Source of the DNA: a virus
Reading direction: 5' to 3' (one strand)
Length of the DNA stretch: 42,458 bases
Virus record (IMG/VR): IMGVR_UViG_3300042892_000761
Coordinates: 1 to 42,458 of that record
Part shown: positions 6,519-23,615 of the stretch, one piece after another
Position numbering within the stretch: the first letter of the stretch is position 1
Layout: each line of letters begins with the position of its first letter
Made by a program: the position numbers and the translations under genes
Notes under the pieces: generated by a model
Told to the model about the DNA's origin: nothing
What the model saw: the letters and a program-made list of their open reading frames with translations, nothing else
Databases searched by the model: none

Positions 6519-6661
6519 AGTTGTATCAAAGCAAAGAATGGCTTCACAGGCGCTATCTTGTACAAAAAAAGACAGTTACAGAAATAGCAAAAGAAGCAGG
6601 AACTTCTGCAATGACTATTCAGAGGTATTTAGTACAGTTTGGATTAATTAAAAAAAGATGA
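6515..6661 (+). CDS. Small helix-turn-helix protein, 48 aa
   Basis: Almost the whole product is one HTH: KTVTEIAKEAGTSAMTIQRY (about residues 19-38), resembling homeodomain-like or resolvase C-terminal HTHs. It overlaps ruvC (ATGA) and the next gene (ATGA). A divergent paralogue lies at 24963, sharing KEW, VTEIA and the same length. Possible roles are a small repressor or DNA-binding accessory. Confidence 0.75.
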   Translation: MKLYQSKEWLHRRYLVQKKTVTEIAKEAGTSAMTIQRYLVQFGLIKKR

Positions 6662-7416
6662 GTATTGAAAAAAATATTTGGCAGACCTATGAAACATCTT
6701 ATGATGATCTACCGCAATATGCTAAAGAAAGTATAGGAACTTGGAAGCATATGAATCAAGACTGGAATCACGGCTATATGTCTGGTCCAGATAGAGAAAA
6801 CTTTTTTAAAGAAAACTTTTCAGAGGAGGTATACAATACATACGTAAACCTACCACTTGGAGTTATGAAAGCTGGCCTGTGGAGATTTGCAATTCTTTAT
6901 ATTCATGGTGGTGTTTACGCAGATATGGATACTCATTGTAAAGCACCAATTTCAGATTGGCTAAGCGATGATAACGATGCCCTTATGGACATTGAGAGGG
7001 ATACTCCGTGGCTTGCAACTCAAGTAATTGCGGCAAAAGCGGGAAGCCCAATAATGAAAGCAGCAATAGATCTATGCGTTGAAAGATGTTCAGACGGTAT
7101 TATTAAGCATAATCACATGGTACATTATTATACTGATGTGCAAATGTTTACAGACGCTATATACAAGCAATTAGGCGTAGAGCCTTATCACAAACATTTA
7201 AATGACTGGGCGTTAGAGCTCATGGAAATGGATTGGCTAAAAAATAATAATGTAAAAATATTAAATGGAGAAGAAGCAAGGCGTCTTCTAGATAAAGATG
7301 TTGTTCACCTATATTGGGGTGACGATAGAGAAGCTGGCTGGATAGCATGGAAAAAAGATCCAATGGTAAATGAATCATATCCAAATGGATTTAATCCTCA
7401 TGAGTGGGAAAAATAA
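6658..7416 (+). CDS. Glycosyltransferase with DXD motif (OCH1/Gly_transf_sug type)
   Basis: The N-terminal IWQTYET and the central RFAILYIHGGVYADMDTHCKAP (about residues 75-98) are hallmarks of the DXD sugar-binding glycosyltransferase family related to yeast Och1 and clostridial toxin catalytic domains. YADMD provides the metal-binding DXD. 252 aa, soluble. It is directly followed by a sugar nucleotidyltransferase gene, so the pair may make and transfer an activated sugar, to host envelope glycan, virion protein or modified DNA bases; the target is not readable. Confidence 0.85.
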   Translation: MSIEKNIWQTYETSYDDLPQYAKESIGTWKHMNQDWNHGYMSGPDRENFFKENFSEEVYNTYVNLPLGVMKAGLWRFAILYIHGGVYADMDTHCKAPISDWLSDDNDALMDIERDTPWLATQVIAAKAGSPIMKAAIDLCVERCSDGIIKHNHMVHYYTDVQMFTDAIYKQLGVEPYHKHLNDWALELMEMDWLKNNNVKILNGEEARRLLDKDVVHLYWGDDREAGWIAWKKDPMVNESYPNGFNPHEWEK

Positions 7417-8087
7417 TGTCTACAATAGGAGTTTTACCAGCATCGGGAAAGGCTTCCAGAATTGGGGGTATACCTAAATTTTGTTTACCAATTTCTGATC
7501 ATACATCTTTGATTCAATGGCATGTAGATCAAATGCTAGAAGTTTGTGATGAAGTTAGAATATCTACAAGAGCCGAATGGGTTCCAATTATTCAAAATAT
7601 GGATATGAATGTTAAATTAATTGTTCGTGAGCCATCTACTATGTCTGATGCAATAAATTTTATGGTGGGCAATTATAATGATACCGTATTGGTTGGAATG
7701 CCAGACACCTTTATACTAAATTCTCCAGTAAATATTTATAAAGAGATGATGAAGCACGATAACGCTGATTTAGTTCTAGGAGTTTGGCCTTGTCAAGATG
7801 ATTTGAAAGGCCGCGTTGGTCAAGTTCTTATAGATTCAAATAGTAAGGTAATCGCTTCGCAAGATAAAATTGATGATTGTGAATATAAAGATATGTGGGG
7901 TACTATGCTATTCAGAAAAAATATGATAAGATACCTAGATCCAGAAAAAGACCATCCAGGAAAGCAGATCCAAGACTGGATTGATGATGGTATGAATATT
8001 ATGGCAACAAGGCCAGGCGGGAAATATATGGATATAGGAACTTTAAGGGGACTTAAACAACTATACAGAGAGATTGATAATGCTTAA
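7416..8087 (+). CDS. Sugar-nucleotide/NTP transferase-like protein
   Basis: Rossmann-like nucleotidyltransferase of 223 aa. The N-terminal LPASGKASRIGGIPKFCLPI follows the GxGxRxxP...PK pattern of glucose-1-phosphate nucleotidyltransferases, and VLVGMPDTF (about residues 88-96) looks like the metal-binding Asp strand. The ATG at 7416 was chosen because it overlaps the upstream TAA; a GTG 12 bases earlier is possible. It likely supplies an NDP-sugar to the glycosyltransferase encoded immediately upstream. Confidence 0.75.
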   Translation: MSTIGVLPASGKASRIGGIPKFCLPISDHTSLIQWHVDQMLEVCDEVRISTRAEWVPIIQNMDMNVKLIVREPSTMSDAINFMVGNYNDTVLVGMPDTFILNSPVNIYKEMMKHDNADLVLGVWPCQDDLKGRVGQVLIDSNSKVIASQDKIDDCEYKDMWGTMLFRKNMIRYLDPEKDHPGKQIQDWIDDGMNIMATRPGGKYMDIGTLRGLKQLYREIDNA

Positions 8088-9102
8088 TATTGGTAACAGT
8101 GAGGCTCTATGTTTTGACGATATTCTTTTAGTTCCACAACAATCAGATGTAGCAAGCCGAAAAGAAGTTAACTTAAAGATGAATGGATATGATTTACCCA
8201 TCGTTTCAAGTCCTATGGATACAGTAACTGGTTGGGAAATGGCAGCACATATTGCCAATGCTGGCGGAATTGGAATAATTCATAGATACATGAGTTCTGC
8301 TGATAGAATATTGGAATGCCGTAAAGCAATAAAGGCTACAGAAAATTCAAATAATATTGGTATTGCTATATCAGCAATTGAAGCTTTAGATACTGAATTT
8401 ATTAAAGATTTGATTTTTGCTGAAGTTAAATGGATATGTATTGATACTGCTAATGGTCATGGAGAATCATGTGCTAGAGCAGTTAGAGTGCTAAAATCTA
8501 ATTTCCCAAAATTAAAAATTATGGCAGGCAATGTTTCCACAAAGCATGGTTACGGTAGATTATCTAGAATGGGTGCTGATGCAATTAGGGTAGGAATTGG
8601 TGGCGGAGCCACATGTACTACTAGAATTGTTTCTGGTCATGGAATGCCAACCCTTCAATCTATTATTGATTGTTATGAATTTAAAAAAGAAAATAATATA
8701 GAGGCTTTAATTATTGCAGACGGTGGAATTAGAAATACAGGAGACATGGTAAAAGCTTTTGCTGCAGGCGCAGATATGGTTATGCTTGGCTCTATGCTAG
8801 CAGGTACAGATGAAGCCCCTGGAGACCTAGATAACGGGTTTAAAAGATTTAGGGGTATGGCAAGTAAGGAAGCTCAATTACAATGGCGTGGAGAGTCTTC
8901 TGTGCCAGAAGGAGTGTCTACTATGATACCTTATAAAGGATTGGTGTCAAATGTTATTGAAGAAATTAAGGGTGGGCTAGGCAGTGGATGTTCTTATTCT
9001 GGAGTACATGCATTAGGAGATTTAGTTCATGAATCAAACTATGTTAAAGTTTCACCATTAAGTAAAGCAGAATCTATTCCCCATGCTAAAGGAGCAAATT
9101 AA
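8080..9102 (+). CDS. guaB: IMP dehydrogenase/GMP reductase family enzyme lacking CBS domains
   Basis: TIM-barrel enzyme of 340 aa. Motifs: SSPMDTV (about residues 43-49), [13 protein letters not shown] with the catalytic Cys at about 179, [14 protein letters not shown], and the flap [12 protein letters not shown] (about 286-297). The flap resembles IMPDH more than GMP reductase, while the length without CBS domains resembles GMP reductase, so the exact reaction is uncertain. It sits between a nucleotidyltransferase and a MazG-like gene, suggesting guanine nucleotide supply. Start at the ATG; eight bases overlap the upstream gene. Confidence 0.85.
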
Positions 9103-12029: not shown

Positions 12030-12103
12030 GCAACAGTAGCTTAGTTGGTTAAAGCCCCGAACTCATAATTCGGTAATCCTCGGTTCAAGTCCGAGCTGTT
12101 GCA
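12030..12103 (+). tRNA. tRNA with anticodon CAT (Met, or Ile2 if lysidylated)
   Basis: Cloverleaf of 74 nt: acceptor GCAACAG pairs with CTGTTGC, D stem GCTT/AAGC, anticodon stem CCGAA/TTCGG around loop CTCATAA, T stem CTCGG/CCGAG around TTCAAGT, discriminator A, no encoded CCA. The G1:C72 pair rules against an initiator tRNA. CAT could be elongator Met or, with lysidine, a tRNA-Ile reading ATA, a codon that is common in this AT-rich phage. Confidence 0.9.
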
Positions 12104-12113
12104 CGGAAAGGTA

Positions 12114-12432: not shown

Positions 12433-12505
12433 GCCTTCGTAGCTCAGAGGACAGAGCATTCGGTTTCTACCCGACTGGCCGCAGGTTCGATCCCTGCCGA
12501 AGGCA
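12433..12505 (+). tRNA. tRNA-Arg (TCT)
   Basis: 73 nt cloverleaf: acceptor GCCTTCG pairs with CGAAGGC, D stem GCTC/GAGC, anticodon loop TTTCTAC (anticodon TCT), T stem GCAGG/CCTGC around TTCGATC, discriminator A, no encoded CCA. The anticodon stem has one mismatch at its top. It reads AGA, the dominant Arg codon in the phage genes here, so it probably compensates for host codon bias. Confidence 0.93.
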
Positions 12506-12509
12506 CTGG

Positions 12510-14456: not shown

Positions 14457-14474
14457 TTAAATAGTCAATCATGA

Positions 14475-14502
14475 TATAATTCTTATGTGATACAAAATTT
14501 GT
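14475..14502 (+). promoter_or_regulatory. Promoter and palindrome before the PA14 protein gene
   Basis: TATAAT (about 14475-14480) follows AGTCAATCATGA. The palindrome ATACAAAATTTGTAT lies just after the expected +1, then TAGGAGAA before the TTG start. Same layout as the CHAP, Hsp20, thermonuclease and 24240 promoters. Confidence 0.55.
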
Positions 14503-14522
14503 ATTCCTAGGAGAACCCCTAA

Positions 14523-17282
14523 TTGACTAGAAAGTTAAGAGTATTTACAGCCTTCCTGCTATCTGTAGGTTGGCTTTTTGCTGTTCCAACCGAAGCTCAT
14601 GCAGCAGAAGGTTTAACTGCTGAAGTCTATAGTGTTAATGGTCAAAACAATGCCCCATACATACCCCAAGGAGCCTCTCCAGTAAGGACAGTCAATGTTC
14701 CTAATGTAGACTTTCAGTGGGGTTCTGGATCAGTCCTTGGAGGCCCATCAGAGGACGTTATTGTAAGGTTTACTGGCTATATTCTTAGCAATACTACGCA
14801 AGATATATCATTTTTAGCAACAGCAGACGATGGAACTAGAATATATATTGATGGCATTTTAATAGCAGATGACTGGTTTGATAAAGGTGGTGGAGGAACT
14901 GTAAGTGCCCCAATATCTTTTACAGCAGGAGTTCCCAAAAACATAGAGCTAATGTACTATGAAAATGGCGGGGGAGCAAATGTATTTTTAAACTGGGATC
15001 AATCTGGATCAATGCAAATTATTCCAGCAGAAGCCTTTACTTCAGTGCCACCACCAATAGTAAAAACAATAGGTGCCCCAAGAAATCTTACAGTAACAGA
15101 TGGAGCAACCTCAACAACTTTAACCTGGGAATCTCCAAACACTGGCAATACTCAGCCTGAAAGATATGCTATTTCTTTTAGTGTTCCAGGAAATGGTTGG
15201 GGTATTGCAACTGGAAATGTTGGAGATACCAATGCCCTTAATACAACAATAGTCATTGATCATTCATTATTAGAACAGTTAAAGCCAAGTGGCACTGTCT
15301 GGTCATTTAATATTAGATCAGATAACGATACAGAAAGACTATACTCTGATATTTCAAATGTCGTTATACTTAAAATTGGATTAACCCAAGCAGAAAAAGA
15401 TGCTGCAGCAGCATTAGCTTTAGCAGCACAACAAGAATTAGATAGACAAGCAGCAGCAAATATTGCAGTTACTAATTATGAAAATCAAGAGATAAGAACT
15501 TTATCAGAAGTGTCTATTGCAGAAGATTTAAAATTATTAGCAGATACCGCAACAGCAACTGTCTTAAATCAAAATGTAAAAGCAACCTTGCAATCAAGAA
15601 TTGACGCAAAAACTTCTACAGTATCTACAGCAAAAACATTATTAATACAGGCAAGGCTTGAAGCAGAAGCTGCAGCAAGATTAGCAGCAGAATTAGAGGC
15701 TGCCAGAATAGCTGCTGAGCAAGAAGCAGCAAGGCAAGCAGCTATATTAGCAGAGGCAGCTAGAGTTGAAGCTGCTAGACAAGCAGCACTTGCTGAGGCT
15801 GCACGAGTTGAAACAGAAAGACAAGCAGCACTTGCTGAGGCTGCACGAGTTGAAACAGAAAGACAAGCAGCACTTGCTGAAGCAGCTAGGGTTGAAGCAG
15901 AAAGACAAGCTGCTATAGCAGAGGCTAATCGTATTGCTGCGGAACAAGAGGCTGCTAGACAGGCTGCTATTAGAGCGGAACAAGAAAGATTAGCTGAAAT
16001 TGCAAGACAAGAAGCAATTAAAGCAGAGGAAGAAAAAGCAAAAGCTGAAGAGGCTGCCAGAATAGCAGAAGAAGAAGCAAGAATTGCTGAAGAAAATGCT
16101 CGCATTGCCGAAGAAGAAAGGCTAAAGGCAGAAGAAGAAGCTCGGATAGCCGAAGAAGAGAGATTAAAAGCAGAAGAAGAAGCTCGGATAGCCGAAGAAG
16201 AGAGATTAAAAGCAGAAGAAGAAGCTCGGATAGCCGAAGAAGAAAGGCTAAAGGCAGAAGAAGAAGCTCGGATAGCCGAAGAAGAGAGATTAAAAGCTGA
16301 AGAAGAGGCACGTATTGCGGAAGAGGAAAAGGCCAAAGCAGAGGAAGAGGCACGTATTGCTGAGGAAGAAAGATTAAAAGCAGAGGAAGAGGCTAAAGCA
16401 GCAGAAGAGGCTCGTTTAAAAGCAGAAGCAGAAGCTAAGGCTGCTGAGGAGGAAAGATTAGAGGCAGAAGCGGAGGCAAAAGCTAAAGCCGAAGAGGATG
16501 CCAGACTAGAAGCAGAAAGAATTGCTGAAGAGAAAGAGGCCAAAGAAAAAGCTGAGGAAGATAGAATTGCTGAAGAAAAAAGATTGAAGGCAGAGGCTGA
16601 TGCCAAAGCAAAAGCTGAAGCAGATAGAATTGCTGCTGAAAAAGCAAATAGTGAAACAACTAAAGAAGAAGTAAAAGAAGCAGTAGCAGCAGTAATTACT
16701 GGCAATACAATTACTCAAGCACAAGCAGCAGAAGTTGTAAATACATTAATGGCTGATGGAAATGTTAGTAAAGCCGAGGTTACTAATCTTGTAGAGGCTT
16801 TAACTGCTGATGGTGGTAAGTTAAATGAATCAGAAAAATCTTTAGTAGCAGATGCATTAGTTGCTTCAGCAGATGGAGAAGCCTTAAGTTCTGAGCAAAT
16901 TAAAGATTCTGGGATTGAGTATAAAGATCTCCCAGCAGAAACACCTGTAGATGTTAGAACAGATGAACAAGGAAATGCAGTTGTTATTACTGCGGAAGTA
17001 GCAGCACAAGTTGAATTGCTACAAGATCCTGCAGCATTGTTGGCAGAAGCATTTTCAGATCCAGGAGCAGCGTTAGCAGCACTTGGAAGTATTGGTGCTG
17101 ACATGTCAACAGAAGAAAGAGAAGAAGCAACAGACATGGTTGTAGCAACAGTTGTAGCAGCGGGAGCAGCAATTAACGCAGCAGCAGTAGCTGCAGGTGG
17201 AACAACAGGTGGAGGCACAGGCGGCGGAAGTTCTGGTGGAGGATCAAATTCACCAGCATCAAGAGGAGGAAGAAGATGGTAA
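14523..17282 (+). CDS. Secreted PA14-FN3-coiled-coil repeat protein, 919 aa
   Basis: The N-terminal signal peptide (hydrophobic core about residues 7-22, cleavage after AHA/AA at about 28) is followed by a PA14-like carbohydrate-binding domain (about 29-170: [36 protein letters not shown]), a fibronectin-III-like domain (about 185-290), a very long Ala/Glu/Arg coiled coil (about 290-735) built on a 14-residue repeat, a helical acidic region, and a Gly/Ser-rich end with RGGRRW. TTG start after TAGGAG. It may be an adsorption fibre, or a protein displayed on the infected cell; signal peptides are unusual for virion proteins. Confidence 0.8.
15789..15872 (+). repeat. 42-bp tandem repeat (two copies) inside the PA14 gene
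   Basis: Two near-identical 42-base units beginning CTTGCTGAGGCTGCACGAG start at 15789 and 15831, encoding [14 protein letters not shown]. The identity at DNA level suggests recent duplication. Confidence 0.75.
16098..16307 (+). repeat. 42-bp tandem repeat array (about 5 copies) inside the PA14 gene
   Basis: Units beginning GCTCGGATAGCCGAAGAAG start at 16140, 16182, 16224 and 16266, with a diverged unit at 16098 and further decayed units to about 16400. Each encodes [14 protein letters not shown]. The arrays should expand and contract by slippage, changing coiled-coil length by two heptads at a time. Confidence 0.8.
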
Positions 17283-17460: not shown

Positions 17461-17781
17461 ATGGAAAGTGTAAAAAATATTAAAAATATTATTATGCGTA
17501 TCGTAGCGGTATTTGCTGCGAATGGTTTAGCGGTTATTGGCGCTGGCGCAATTGCTGGTATTTCAACCGCTAAAGCAATTACAGTTGCTGGACTAACAGC
17601 AGTAGCCGCAGTTGTAGAAAAGCTAGCTCGTGCATTTATGGACGATGGAAAGCTAACAATAGATGAAATTAATTCTGCATTCTCTACAGTAGACAAGAGC
17701 GCTAAAACGGTAGCCGATGTTGAGGTAGAAGAGCGTCAATTATCAGAAAAGGTTAAGTCGGCTAAAGCCACAAAAGCCTAA
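17461..17781 (+). CDS. Holin-like membrane protein, 106 aa
   Basis: A hydrophobic N-terminal half (about residues 12-50, with Gly/Ala-rich VIGAGAIAGISTAKAITVAGLTAV) and a charged soluble C-terminal half (FMDDGKLTIDEINSAFS, Lys-rich end). This resembles actinophage holins that have one or two TMs and a cytoplasmic tail. GAGGAGGAA Shine-Dalgarno, two bases after the previous stop. Function is inferred. Confidence 0.55.
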   Translation: MESVKNIKNIIMRIVAVFAANGLAVIGAGAIAGISTAKAITVAGLTAVAAVVEKLARAFMDDGKLTIDEINSAFSTVDKSAKTVADVEVEERQLSEKVKSAKATKA

Positions 17782-19634: not shown

Positions 19635-20189
19635 ATGACCTGTATTGTAGCAATAGCTCAGAATGATGTAGTCTATATGGCTGCCGACCACGCAGCTTCT
19701 GATGAAAAGTCTGGGTGGATACTTAGTCGAAAAGACCCCAAGGTATTTAAGGTTGGTCAGTATGGCATAGCATTTACTGATAGTTTTAGAATGGGTCAAA
19801 TTTTACAGTATTCTTGGACTCCTCCAAGATATACGCCAACTAAAACTAATAGCGGATTAGATAAGTTTATGAAGACCAAGTTCATTGATTCAGTTAAAGA
19901 ATCATTTAGAGGCGGTGGATACGGAAGTCAGGTATCTGGTCAAGAAGACGAGGGTGGAATTTTTATAGTAGGTATATGCGGAAGAATATTTACTATAGAT
20001 GAAGACTTTCATGTGGGAGAGAATATAGTTAATTATATGGCGGAAGGATCAGGTGGTATGTTTGCGCTAGGAGCCTTACATGCTACTAAGAACCAAAAGA
20101 ATCCTAAAATGAGGTTGAAATTAGCCTTAGAAGCAGCAGCAGAATTTTCAATGAGCGTAGCCCCACCATTTACATATATTCAAGTGTAG
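19635..20189 (+). CDS. Proteasome/HslV-like Ntn-hydrolase
   Basis: 184 aa resembling 20S proteasome beta subunits and HslV. After removal of Met1, Thr would be the N-terminal nucleophile (TCIVAIAQNDVVYMAADH). Counting from this Thr, Asp falls at 17, matching the proteasome catalytic Asp, and a Lys in DPKVFKVG falls at 35, near proteasome Lys33. The GSGGMFALGALHAT segment matches the family's GxG...A-x-G core strand. There is no propeptide and no ATPase partner nearby. Related unnamed proteins occur in actinophages; substrate unknown. Confidence 0.8.
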   Translation: MTCIVAIAQNDVVYMAADHAASDEKSGWILSRKDPKVFKVGQYGIAFTDSFRMGQILQYSWTPPRYTPTKTNSGLDKFMKTKFIDSVKESFRGGGYGSQVSGQEDEGGIFIVGICGRIFTIDEDFHVGENIVNYMAEGSGGMFALGALHATKNQKNPKMRLKLALEAAAEFSMSVAPPFTYIQV

Positions 20190-20739: not shown

Positions 20740-21672
20740 ATGAATAAAAAACTTATAGTGGCCCTTATAGCCACAGCAATTGCCATTCCTACAACGGCTC
20801 AAGCAGCCATGAAGTCAGAAATTTTAGTATCAGTACCTACACTAGCAATTTTAGATACCGCTCTTGACACATCATTACCAATTTTTCAAGGTAAGATTGC
20901 TCATGAAGTTTGTATTCTAGACTGGAATAGTTGCCCTAATGGAACTTCTTTCATGGAAGGCCCAGGATCTTCTGTTTTGCCACTCAGTATTCTTTCAACC
21001 TCTAAATTTAATCATGGCACTCAAATGGCTTCTGCTGCAATTACAGAAAATCCAAACATGAAAATTGTATTTGTTAGAATCATTGGAAATACTGCAAATG
21101 GCGGACGTCAGTTAACTGGACCTAAATCTGTGGCTAATGCCTTAAAATGGGTTTATGATAATAAGAGCAAATACAACATTCAAGCAGTATCTATGTCTCA
21201 AGGACATCATAATCTATTAAAATTATTTAGCTATTGCCCAACTAATGGAGCAGTCGATCTACAAATTAGAAACTTAAAATCAATAGATGTACCCTCCTTC
21301 TTTGCCGCTGGCAACGCATATGATTATAAAAGAGTTGACTGGCCTGCGTGTCAGCCATATGCAATTGCTGTAGGGGCAACTGATCAATACGGAGAAATTG
21401 AGTCTTACAGTAATGTAGATTTAAAACAAACTTCTTTTTACGCAAAAGGTTCTGCTAGAGTATTTTTACCAAGCGGAAGTGAAGGCAATGCTGCTGGAAC
21501 ATCTGTATCAACTCAGATAGCAGCAGCTCAGTGGATTGCATTAAAGTCTGCTAAACCACTCTTATCTTACCAAGAAATTTATAATCTATTAAAAAAGACT
21601 GGAACTCCAACAAAAAATGCTCACGTAAATTCTGGAATTCTAATTAATATAGGGGCAGCAATTAATGGCTAA
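20740..21672 (+). CDS. Secreted subtilisin-like serine protease (S8)
   Basis: 310 aa with a clear signal peptide (hydrophobic core about residues 5-19, cleavage near AQAA at 20-23). The S8 triad is visible: Asp39 in LAILDTALD, His92 in NHGTQMAS, and Ser255 in AAGTSVSTQ; the oxyanion Asn is in AAGNAYD (about 192). There is no long propeptide between signal and catalytic domain. It would act outside the membrane, on host surface or phage-secreted proteins. A secreted protease is uncommon cargo for a lytic phage. Confidence 0.92.
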   Translation: MNKKLIVALIATAIAIPTTAQAAMKSEILVSVPTLAILDTALDTSLPIFQGKIAHEVCILDWNSCPNGTSFMEGPGSSVLPLSILSTSKFNHGTQMASAAITENPNMKIVFVRIIGNTANGGRQLTGPKSVANALKWVYDNKSKYNIQAVSMSQGHHNLLKLFSYCPTNGAVDLQIRNLKSIDVPSFFAAGNAYDYKRVDWPACQPYAIAVGATDQYGEIESYSNVDLKQTSFYAKGSARVFLPSGSEGNAAGTSVSTQIAAAQWIALKSAKPLLSYQEIYNLLKKTGTPTKNAHVNSGILINIGAAING

Positions 21673-22352: not shown

Positions 22353-23615
22353 ATGAATTCATTAAAGAAAATCTCAATTGCTACTGCTGCAGCCCTAGCA
22401 ATTATGAGCGTTTCTGCAATTTCAGCTACTGCTGCACCGCTTGCGGTCACAGTTGCTACAGTTGCTAACGCTACTACATCTGCAGCACCTGCATCAATTG
22501 CGGTGCCATCGACAAATGTAATTAACGCAGCAAACGCTGTCGCAATTACAGCAACAGCAGATGCAACTACATCTGTTACATTTACAGCATCATCAACAGT
22601 TAAATTAATTTCTGCTCTTCACACAGCAGATGCCCCAAAGAATGTTAATAGTGGTGTTTCAGCACTTACTGGCGTTTCAACAGGTGCAGCAATTACCGTT
22701 TACGCATATACAACATCAACAACAGTTGGTTCCGTTATCGTTACAAATGGTGCGTATTCAACAATTATTTATGTTAAAGGTGTAGCAGGACCTGCTTACA
22801 ATTTAGCAGTTACAGTTCCTTCTGCAGCAGCAGTTGGAACAGTTCCAGCAATCTCAGTTTCAACAACTGATATTTTTGGTAACGCATCTTCAGATACAGT
22901 AACAGCAACAATCGTCGGCTCAACTTTTGCTGATGGTTCATCTGTTAAAGCATTGTCTCCAGAAGTTGCCTCATACTCACTTGCAGTTGGTGTAGCAGGA
23001 GAAGTTACAATAATTGTAACTGGCCTAACTCTAGTTGCTCCAGTAACAGGATTTGCGGCACCAGTAAAGTCAGCCATTGCTAAATTTGCTATTGCCGATC
23101 TGGGTGCTGATATTGCAGCATTGAAGGCTTCAATTGCTTTAGAAAAGTCTGGACGTTTATCAGATGCAGCATTAGCAGCAGAAGCTGCAAAGGTTGCTAA
23201 AGCAGCAGCAGACAAGGCTCTAGCCGATGCTAAAGCAGCAGCAGACAAGGCTCTAGCCGATGCTAAGGTTGCCTCAGACATGGCTCTAGCCGATGCTAAA
23301 GCCATGGCAAAGATTGAAGCAGATACAGCAAAGGCTACTGCCGATGCAGCACTTACTAACGCAAAAGCAGAAGCAGTAACAGCTAAGACTGCAGCAGATA
23401 AGGCTTTGGCAGACGCTCTAGCAGCATCCAAGGTTGCTTCAGATAAGGCTTTAGCAGACGCTAAAGCGGCTTCCGATTTAGCTCTTGCTTTTTCAAAGTC
23501 AGCATACGATGTTGCAGCAGCAGCTGCTAAGGCAACTTATAAGAATGAATATAATAAGTTGGCTACCAAGTGGAACAAGGCTAATCCAAAGGCTAAGGTT
23601 GCACTAAAGAAGTAA
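22353..23615 (+). CDS. Secreted Ig-like protein with hendecad repeat stalk, 420 aa
   Basis: Signal peptide (about residues 1-27, ending ATAAP) followed by Thr/Ser/Val-rich beta-sheet domains (about 30-245; VTVPSAAAVGTVPAISVSTTDIFGN resembles bacterial Ig-like/invasin repeats) and an Ala-rich helical stalk (about 265-395) built on an 11-residue repeat (AKAAADKALAD). The end is Lys-rich. Strong AAAAGGAGAAA Shine-Dalgarno, and a strong terminator follows. It looks like a cell-surface or extracellular protein, similar in style to host surface proteins; acquisition from a host is plausible. Confidence 0.75.
   Translation: MNSLKKISIATAAALAIMSVSAISATAAPLAVTVATVANATTSAAPASIAVPSTNVINAANAVAITATADATTSVTFTASSTVKLISALHTADAPKNVNSGVSALTGVSTGAAITVYAYTTSTTVGSVIVTNGAYSTIIYVKGVAGPAYNLAVTVPSAAAVGTVPAISVSTTDIFGNASSDTVTATIVGSTFADGSSVKALSPEVASYSLAVGVAGEVTIIVTGLTLVAPVTGFAAPVKSAIAKFAIADLGADIAALKASIALEKSGRLSDAALAAEAAKVAKAAADKALADAKAAADKALADAKVASDMALADAKAMAKIEADTAKATADAALTNAKAEAVTAKTAADKALADALAASKVASDKALADAKAASDLALAFSKSAYDVAAAAAKATYKNEYNKLATKWNKANPKAKVALKK
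23197..23274 (+). repeat. 33-bp tandem repeat in the stalk region
   Basis: A 33-base unit beginning GCTAAAGCAGCAGCAGACAA occurs twice almost perfectly (AKAAADKALAD) and continues with diverged copies downstream. Confidence 0.7.

Follow-up and report, generated by a model that had tools for sequence, protein, structure and literature searches.

A phage-encoded PA14 protein with a repeat-variable stalk and a putative membrane anchor as a candidate periscope-like adhesin of infected cells

What might a phage gain from a long protein with an export-type leader and a PA14-like head on a repeat-rich rod? The question is raised by an open reading frame on the plus strand of the window, i.e., the whole stretch of 42,458 nucleotides analysed here (IMG/VR record IMGVR_UViG_3300042892_000761). 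The gene (14523-17282, stop codon at 17280-17282) encodes 919 residues, and a preliminary description made from the sequence alone had its coordinates right. The TTG start is at 14523 and the Shine-Dalgarno sequence at 14509-14513 (Table 1). That description called the protein a giant; the term fits its 919 residues but is only relative, as relatives range from 540 to 996 residues (median 794). We suggest that the giant is best explained as a periscope-like adhesin displayed late on the surface of the infected cell, and we put the probability of this reading at about 0.6.

Table 1. Features of the giant gene and its flanks, in positions of the window
Feature	Position	Strand	Basis or remark
Extended -10 promoter element TGATATAAT	14472..14480	+	TGNTATAAT or near variant in most relatives
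5'-leader hairpin GATACAAAATTTGTATT	14489..14505	+	Directly 5' of the Shine-Dalgarno sequence; predicted
Shine-Dalgarno AGGAG	14509..14513	+	Sequence
TTG start codon	14523..14525	+	Inferred start codons of the family mostly ATT/TTG/CTG
Signal peptide, 27 residues	14523..14603	+	n/h/c layout, rule-based
PA14 domain	14661..15017	+	Pfam PF07691 E 2.6e-6; AF2 pLDDT 90; PDB profile matches
FN3-like domain	15075..15380	+	Pfam fn3 E 0.003, sub-threshold; AF2 beta sandwich
A/E/K/R-rich stalk, 439 residues (287-725)	15381..16697	+	No Pro/Gly, 7-residue periodicity
42-bp repeat array 1, 14-residue unit	15763..15910	+	TRF 3.5 copies, 90%; exact 62-bp repeat
42-bp repeat array 2, 14-residue unit	16062..16394	+	TRF 7.9 copies, 81%; exact 74-bp repeat
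Conserved C-terminal (membrane-proximal) domain, ~145 residues	16698..17132	+	IMG/VR loci; alignments; AF2 72
Hydrophobic helix, 22 residues, putative TM	17133..17198	+	Hydropathy 2.05; one helix in model
Gly/Ser linker and basic tail SRGGRRW	17199..17279	+	R/K-rich ends in relatives
Two-TM partner, 60 aa	17276..17458	+	Overlaps the giant's stop (ATGGTAA)
Holin-like membrane ORF	17461..17781	+	PHROG holin E 0.003; near the giant in 34/~49 relatives

Start signals, leader and head

The giant hardly ever appears to start with AUG. Among 53 distinct cases in which the start is backed by a Shine-Dalgarno sequence and a leader, the codon is ATT (29), TTG (17), CTG (5), ATG (1) or GTG (1), so that ATT, TTG or CTG is the inferred start in 51 of 53. 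Neighbouring genes scored alike mostly use ATG (HSP20, 24/24; a secreted Ala-rich protein, 22/22; subtilase, 16/17; endolysin, 46/55), TerL with its many TTG starts being the exception. Several relatives (L040, L043, L050 and L064) have no ATG, GTG or TTG in frame ahead of the leader, and half of the relatives failed a signal-peptide screen limited to these three starts, which exposed the ATT starts. In Escherichia coli, only two genes start with AUU, and there it limits translation (PMC9410913). Because its start codons are weak, the giant is probably a low-copy product. If confirmed, the near-absence of AUG would amount to a natural collection of AUU-initiated genes.

A TGNTATAAT-like box precedes the giant at a comparable position in most relatives, and a 5'-leader hairpin of differing sequence is predicted in most of them. 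In the window, extended -10 boxes followed by a short hairpin at the presumed transcript start lie at 14472-14505, 13219 and 24174; between phages, the pairing is kept while the sequence differs. Because it is also found at these other promoters, the hairpin is not specific to the giant. Its z-scores are modest (median -1.1), and we do not claim a gene-specific riboregulator.

The leader has the n/h/c layout of a Sec signal peptide (a rule-based call) and is conserved in relatives that carry different heads, which bears out the signal peptide proposed earlier. The head held up as well: the PA14 match (27.7 bits) lies above the curated Pfam cut-off of 24, AF2 models the head with high confidence, and the second domain is modelled as a beta sandwich with pLDDT >90, which upholds the FN3 call despite its sub-threshold Pfam match. 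By profile, the closest solved PA14 domains are those of RsgI3 (E 7e-32) and the biofilm adhesin Lap (1.5e-11); matches by fold also include the sugar-bound PA14 domain of MpIBP and the Epa1 adhesins. By fold family, the head is of a sugar-binding type, and we consider it a putative carbohydrate-binding module.

Stalk repeats and exchange of heads

The coiled coil of roughly 440 residues in the preliminary description corresponds to residues 287 to 725, which contain 0 Pro and 0 Gly and have a hydrophobic period of 7; as one continuous helix, this stalk would be ~66 nm long. Three observations bear on the near-identical 42-bp repeats and their variable number, both claimed earlier. First, within the tandem arrays, stretches of 74 bp (16128/16170) and of 62 bp (15777/15819) recur exactly at 42-bp spacing. 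With the peptide fixed and codons drawn as the gene uses them, each has p ~2e-7; repeats this improbable point to recent DNA duplications. Second, codon identity over the whole arrays is weakly above expectation, with 124/2000 and 197/2000 simulations as high. Third, five pairs of near-identical relatives differ by 10, 24, 40, 65 and 65 residues; every difference lies in the stalk and is a whole multiple of the local unit (24=4x6, 40=8x5, 65=13x5 twice; also 10), although most of these variants come from short-read assemblies and assembly could create some. Both claims are borne out, the second with this caveat. Across the relatives, the repeat units have 5-14 residues and form two types of stalk, helical or Pro-rich. 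Matches of the stalk to TolA and Extensin profiles were set aside as low complexity.

A stalk akin in composition to TolA domain II (NCBIfam E 8e-7, low complexity) and lysis-type neighbours would suit an envelope-spanning effector, a rod of the spanin or TolA kind by which the wall or surface layer is disrupted when the cell lyses. Such a rod would have to match a fixed envelope thickness, to which neither a folded lectin-type head at its far end nor its wide length variation is suited, and in relatives the helical rod is replaced by Pro-rich stalks. We regard this explanation as very improbable.

Candidate stretches in IMG/VR encode relatives of the N-terminal part (171) and of the C-terminal part (296). 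PA14-FN3 heads stand on helical stalks and the other heads mostly on Pro-rich ones; these alternative heads are beta modules with a "VYVxTNGxIxFG"-like motif or a variant PA14, the latter being the only one of the four with a Pfam identity. Heads and stalks have been exchanged between phages on the same anchors: both head types occur on both types of anchor and two-TM pair (30, 16, 12 and 17 distinct cases), and the tree of anchors forces at least three head changes (starred branches), with ~6 as the best estimate. Beneath these varying heads, the C-terminal domain, TM helix and two-TM partner hardly change.

Head exchange is also expected under phage-phage competition and, with surface display, counts for superinfection exclusion. 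An anchored lectin-like head would then mask the glycan receptor of related phages, which would shield the infected cell and prevent progeny from sticking to debris; the exclusion mechanism described most often is receptor inactivation (PMC11436027). However, the head modules found no credible match in the other ORFs, tail proteins included, of the near-complete relatives G001, G003 and G007. Masking would, moreover, favour a high copy number, whereas the start codons are weak, and a long stalk shifts the head away from the cell surface. Exclusion is, in our view, an unlikely function. Receptor mimicry, i.e., a head common to tail fibres, was rejected, as no other ORF of these three genomes gave a credible match.

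C-terminal anchor and two-TM partner

The preliminary description took the giant to be secreted. The secreted-type leader stands, but a probable anchor consisting of the C-terminal domain, a hydrophobic helix, an Arg tail and a two-TM gene had been overlooked. The C-terminal domain has no fold match for its AF2 model (best E 0.85) and no real match in 395 + 151 actinobacterial genomes; a host origin for it was dropped, as its sole weak match among cellular genomes is an HflX-type GTPase. The Ala- and Gly-rich putative TM helix has the highest hydropathy of the protein (TM segments were called by hydropathy, leaders by rule), and at least two R/K lie within the last 8 residues in 103/103 relatives. 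An LPxTG sorting signal was found in 0/103 relatives, and sortase anchoring was rejected.

The two-TM ORF, with its two hydrophobic segments, follows the giant in nearly all relatives with an overlap of 4 or 7 bases. Its product is encoded in at least 595 contigs, and among the matches listed, the giant's C-terminal domain lies directly upstream in 77/77 contigs long enough to tell. Over its 27-codon core, 99 DNA versions, with variable third positions at 24/27 codons, give only 8 peptides, and it is therefore a real, tightly constrained gene. Set beside class II holins, which are small and have two TM segments in an N-in/C-in topology, the ORF has two hydrophobic segments and matches no holin family. 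No relatives of it were found in deposited phages. In a distant lineage, phage DSL-LC01 and contig L191, an analogous giant ends in a fused two-TM-like segment, with PHROG 29041 among the support; the DSL-LC01 tail has a profile score of 12.4, whereas 1000 shuffles reached 6.6 at best, and its homology to the ORF of the window is modest. Such a fusion is a hint that the two proteins cooperate at the membrane. Because of the C-terminal domain, the hydrophobic helix, the Arg tail and the two-TM partner with its fusion, we propose that the giant is probably membrane anchored and surface displayed rather than freely secreted.

Genome setting, function and comparison with known systems

In the near-complete 111-kb genome G003, the giant adjoins the terminase at 35.3-37.4 kb. 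The genes for minor tail, tape measure, head and portal are found at 60-83 kb, a distance of at least 23 kb. The giant is also outside the structural module in G001 and in G007, a contractile-tailed phage that is unrelated yet has the cassette in common; the backbones of the carriers differ. PA14 and FN3 domains and coiled coils occur in phage fibres, and there is a weak PHROG match to head "attachment protein" in the Gly-rich tail only, both of which would fit a fibre or minor tail protein with an N-terminus that is hydrophobic but no export signal. Against such a virion component stand the distance from the structural genes, a leader kept through head changes, and the TM helix, basic tail and two-TM partner. 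We consider it highly unlikely, in line with the earlier argument against a simple virion fibre; the surface display proposed alongside it, with a head of adhesive type, is supported as well.

The most constant neighbours of the giant are genes for a CHAP endolysin, an HslV-like protease, a holin-like ORF and TerL, and the constant nearness of the endolysin and holin-like genes also fits a role in lysis. The ectodomain might, for instance, detect an outside cue (a glycan, a superinfecting phage or crowding) and, via the TM helix, pass a signal to the two-TM partner and the holin-like protein that delays or triggers lysis, much as T4 RI acts on its holin. A near-invariant membrane part under a varying head, the lysis-type neighbours, start codons weak enough for a regulator and a closest solved PA14 domain from the sensor RsgI3 agree with such a lysis-timing sensor. 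By contrast, a ~66-nm repeat-variable stalk is unneeded for sensing and would transmit poorly, homology to known antiholins is lacking, and the two-TM ORF resembles no holin family. We judge a timing sensor to be unlikely, and still less likely its specific form in which a widespread two-gene cassette, with a swappable head on the ectodomain and an invariant two-TM partner, is translated at few copies from AUU, UUG or CUG and is an external periscope-like sensor coupled to the holin that sets lysis time.

Several neighbouring genes deserve mention. The holin-like ORF ends in DDGKLTIDEI, akin to the DGKLTxxE motifs of the giant's C-terminal domain, and its label "nuclease" (PHROG 26427) looks misnamed. 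The HslV/proteasome-like protease (19635-20189), a constant neighbour, has Thr right after Met. A subtilase with a signal peptide (mycosin-like; 20740-21672) could process a surface protein. A second secreted Ala-rich helical protein (22353-23615) has 33-bp repeats; in 22 relatives, a homologue is found close to the giant, in most of them immediately upstream. The window also contains tRNA-Met(cat) (12030-12104) and tRNA-Arg(tct) (12433-12506) between terminase and endolysin and, by eye, glycosyltransferase-like (6658-7416), nucleotidyltransferase-like (7404-8087) and IMP-dehydrogenase-like (8074-9102) genes. The gene that adjoins TerL close to the giant in G001 (L162:15906-18506, L181:1306-3990) specifies a secreted Ig-like protein of 866 aa. 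One cellular actinobacterial genome contains a homologue along its full length (30%, E 2e-15), and the phage gene may have been copied from that of a host surface protein.

The head has cellular relatives among actinobacterial proteins that are secreted or wall anchored. A Rhodoluna PA14 protein ends in LADTG-TM-RKTKRS beside a sortase-like gene, and PA14 proteins with signal peptides matched in 11/151 genomes of a small-genome actinobacterial order, probably Nanopelagicales. Based on these relatives, a WhiB gene and the HslV-like gene, we infer that the host is a freshwater actinobacterium. In fresh water, such actinobacteria rank among the most abundant bacteria.

Altogether, the preliminary picture of leader, head and stalk stands, while the swapping of heads and stalks, the lysis neighbourhood and the non-AUG starts had been missed. 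Returning to the periscope-like adhesin, we suggest the following scenario. The giant would be exported via its signal peptide and held at the membrane by its C-terminal helix, basic tail and translationally coupled two-TM partner; the topology, the overlap, the complete co-occurrence and the fusion are the reasons for assigning the partner this role. The rigid stalk of variable length would hold the sugar-binding-type head well beyond the wall. Expression would be late, alongside the lysis-type genes, with weak start codons probably keeping the copy number low. By late adhesion, the infected cell would be tethered to glycans on other cells or on particles, so that progeny would come free close to new hosts. 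The anchored, surface-displayed anatomy is rather probable; that adhesion itself is the function we propose tentatively, with exclusion and lysis sensing as its live rivals.

RsgI is anchored near its N-terminus and has a cytoplasmic anti-sigma domain. The RsgI-type anti-sigma factors (PDB 6qe7, 6qdi), closest to the giant in PA14 profile, are membrane proteins with the PA14 domain outside; unlike them, the giant has an N-terminal signal peptide, a C-terminal TM helix and no detected anti-sigma domain. In the RTX adhesins MpIBP and Lap (6x8a, 6m8m) and the Epa1 flocculins (4af9), a PA14 fold likewise sits on a long cell-surface adhesin; their anchors and stalks differ from those of the giant, a putative glycan binder. 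Like fibrillar adhesins (PMC9210967, PMC8286594), the giant combines an adhesive-type domain, a stalk and a surface anchor; unlike them, it has no LPxTG motif, is encoded by a phage and has a novel C-terminal domain. The nearest phage counterpart that we describe, WJZ48438 of Actinomycetia phage DSL-LC01, a metagenome-assembled genome rather than an isolate (PMC10611076), is annotated as hypothetical. It shares the leader, the FN3-like domain (47% identity), a low-complexity stalk and a hydrophobic segment, but differs in its upstream head, its Ser/Thr/Pro stalk and the fusion of the two-TM part into one polypeptide. Such a protein is not mentioned in the two papers searched on phages of these freshwater actinobacteria.

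The closest parallel in design is with the periscope proteins (SasG, Rib, Sgo_0707; PMC8201768), in which an exported head sits on a rod whose length varies through DNA repeats. For the giant, a leader, a PA14 head at the N-terminal end and a TM helix are predicted, and repeat number varies between near-identical genes (five pairs, with the short-read caveat). Periscope proteins come from bacteria and have rods built of tandem, highly similar folded domains, with wall anchoring in the Gram-positive examples (PMC8201768), whereas the giant is phage-borne, has helical or Pro-rich units of 5-14 residues and would be anchored by a TM helix and a two-TM partner. Because its stalk is without folded domains, we describe the giant as working like a periscope protein and do not file it as a member. 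If this reading is true, many phages of these bacteria (the anchor partner is encoded in at least 595 contigs) alter the surface of infected cells that are still alive, by means of a modular protein that can be extended. How phages control host adhesion, exclusion or lysis timing could then be tested in this system. Compared to bacterial periscope adhesins, the proposed type of anchor is new, and a principle known from those adhesins would be carried to phages.
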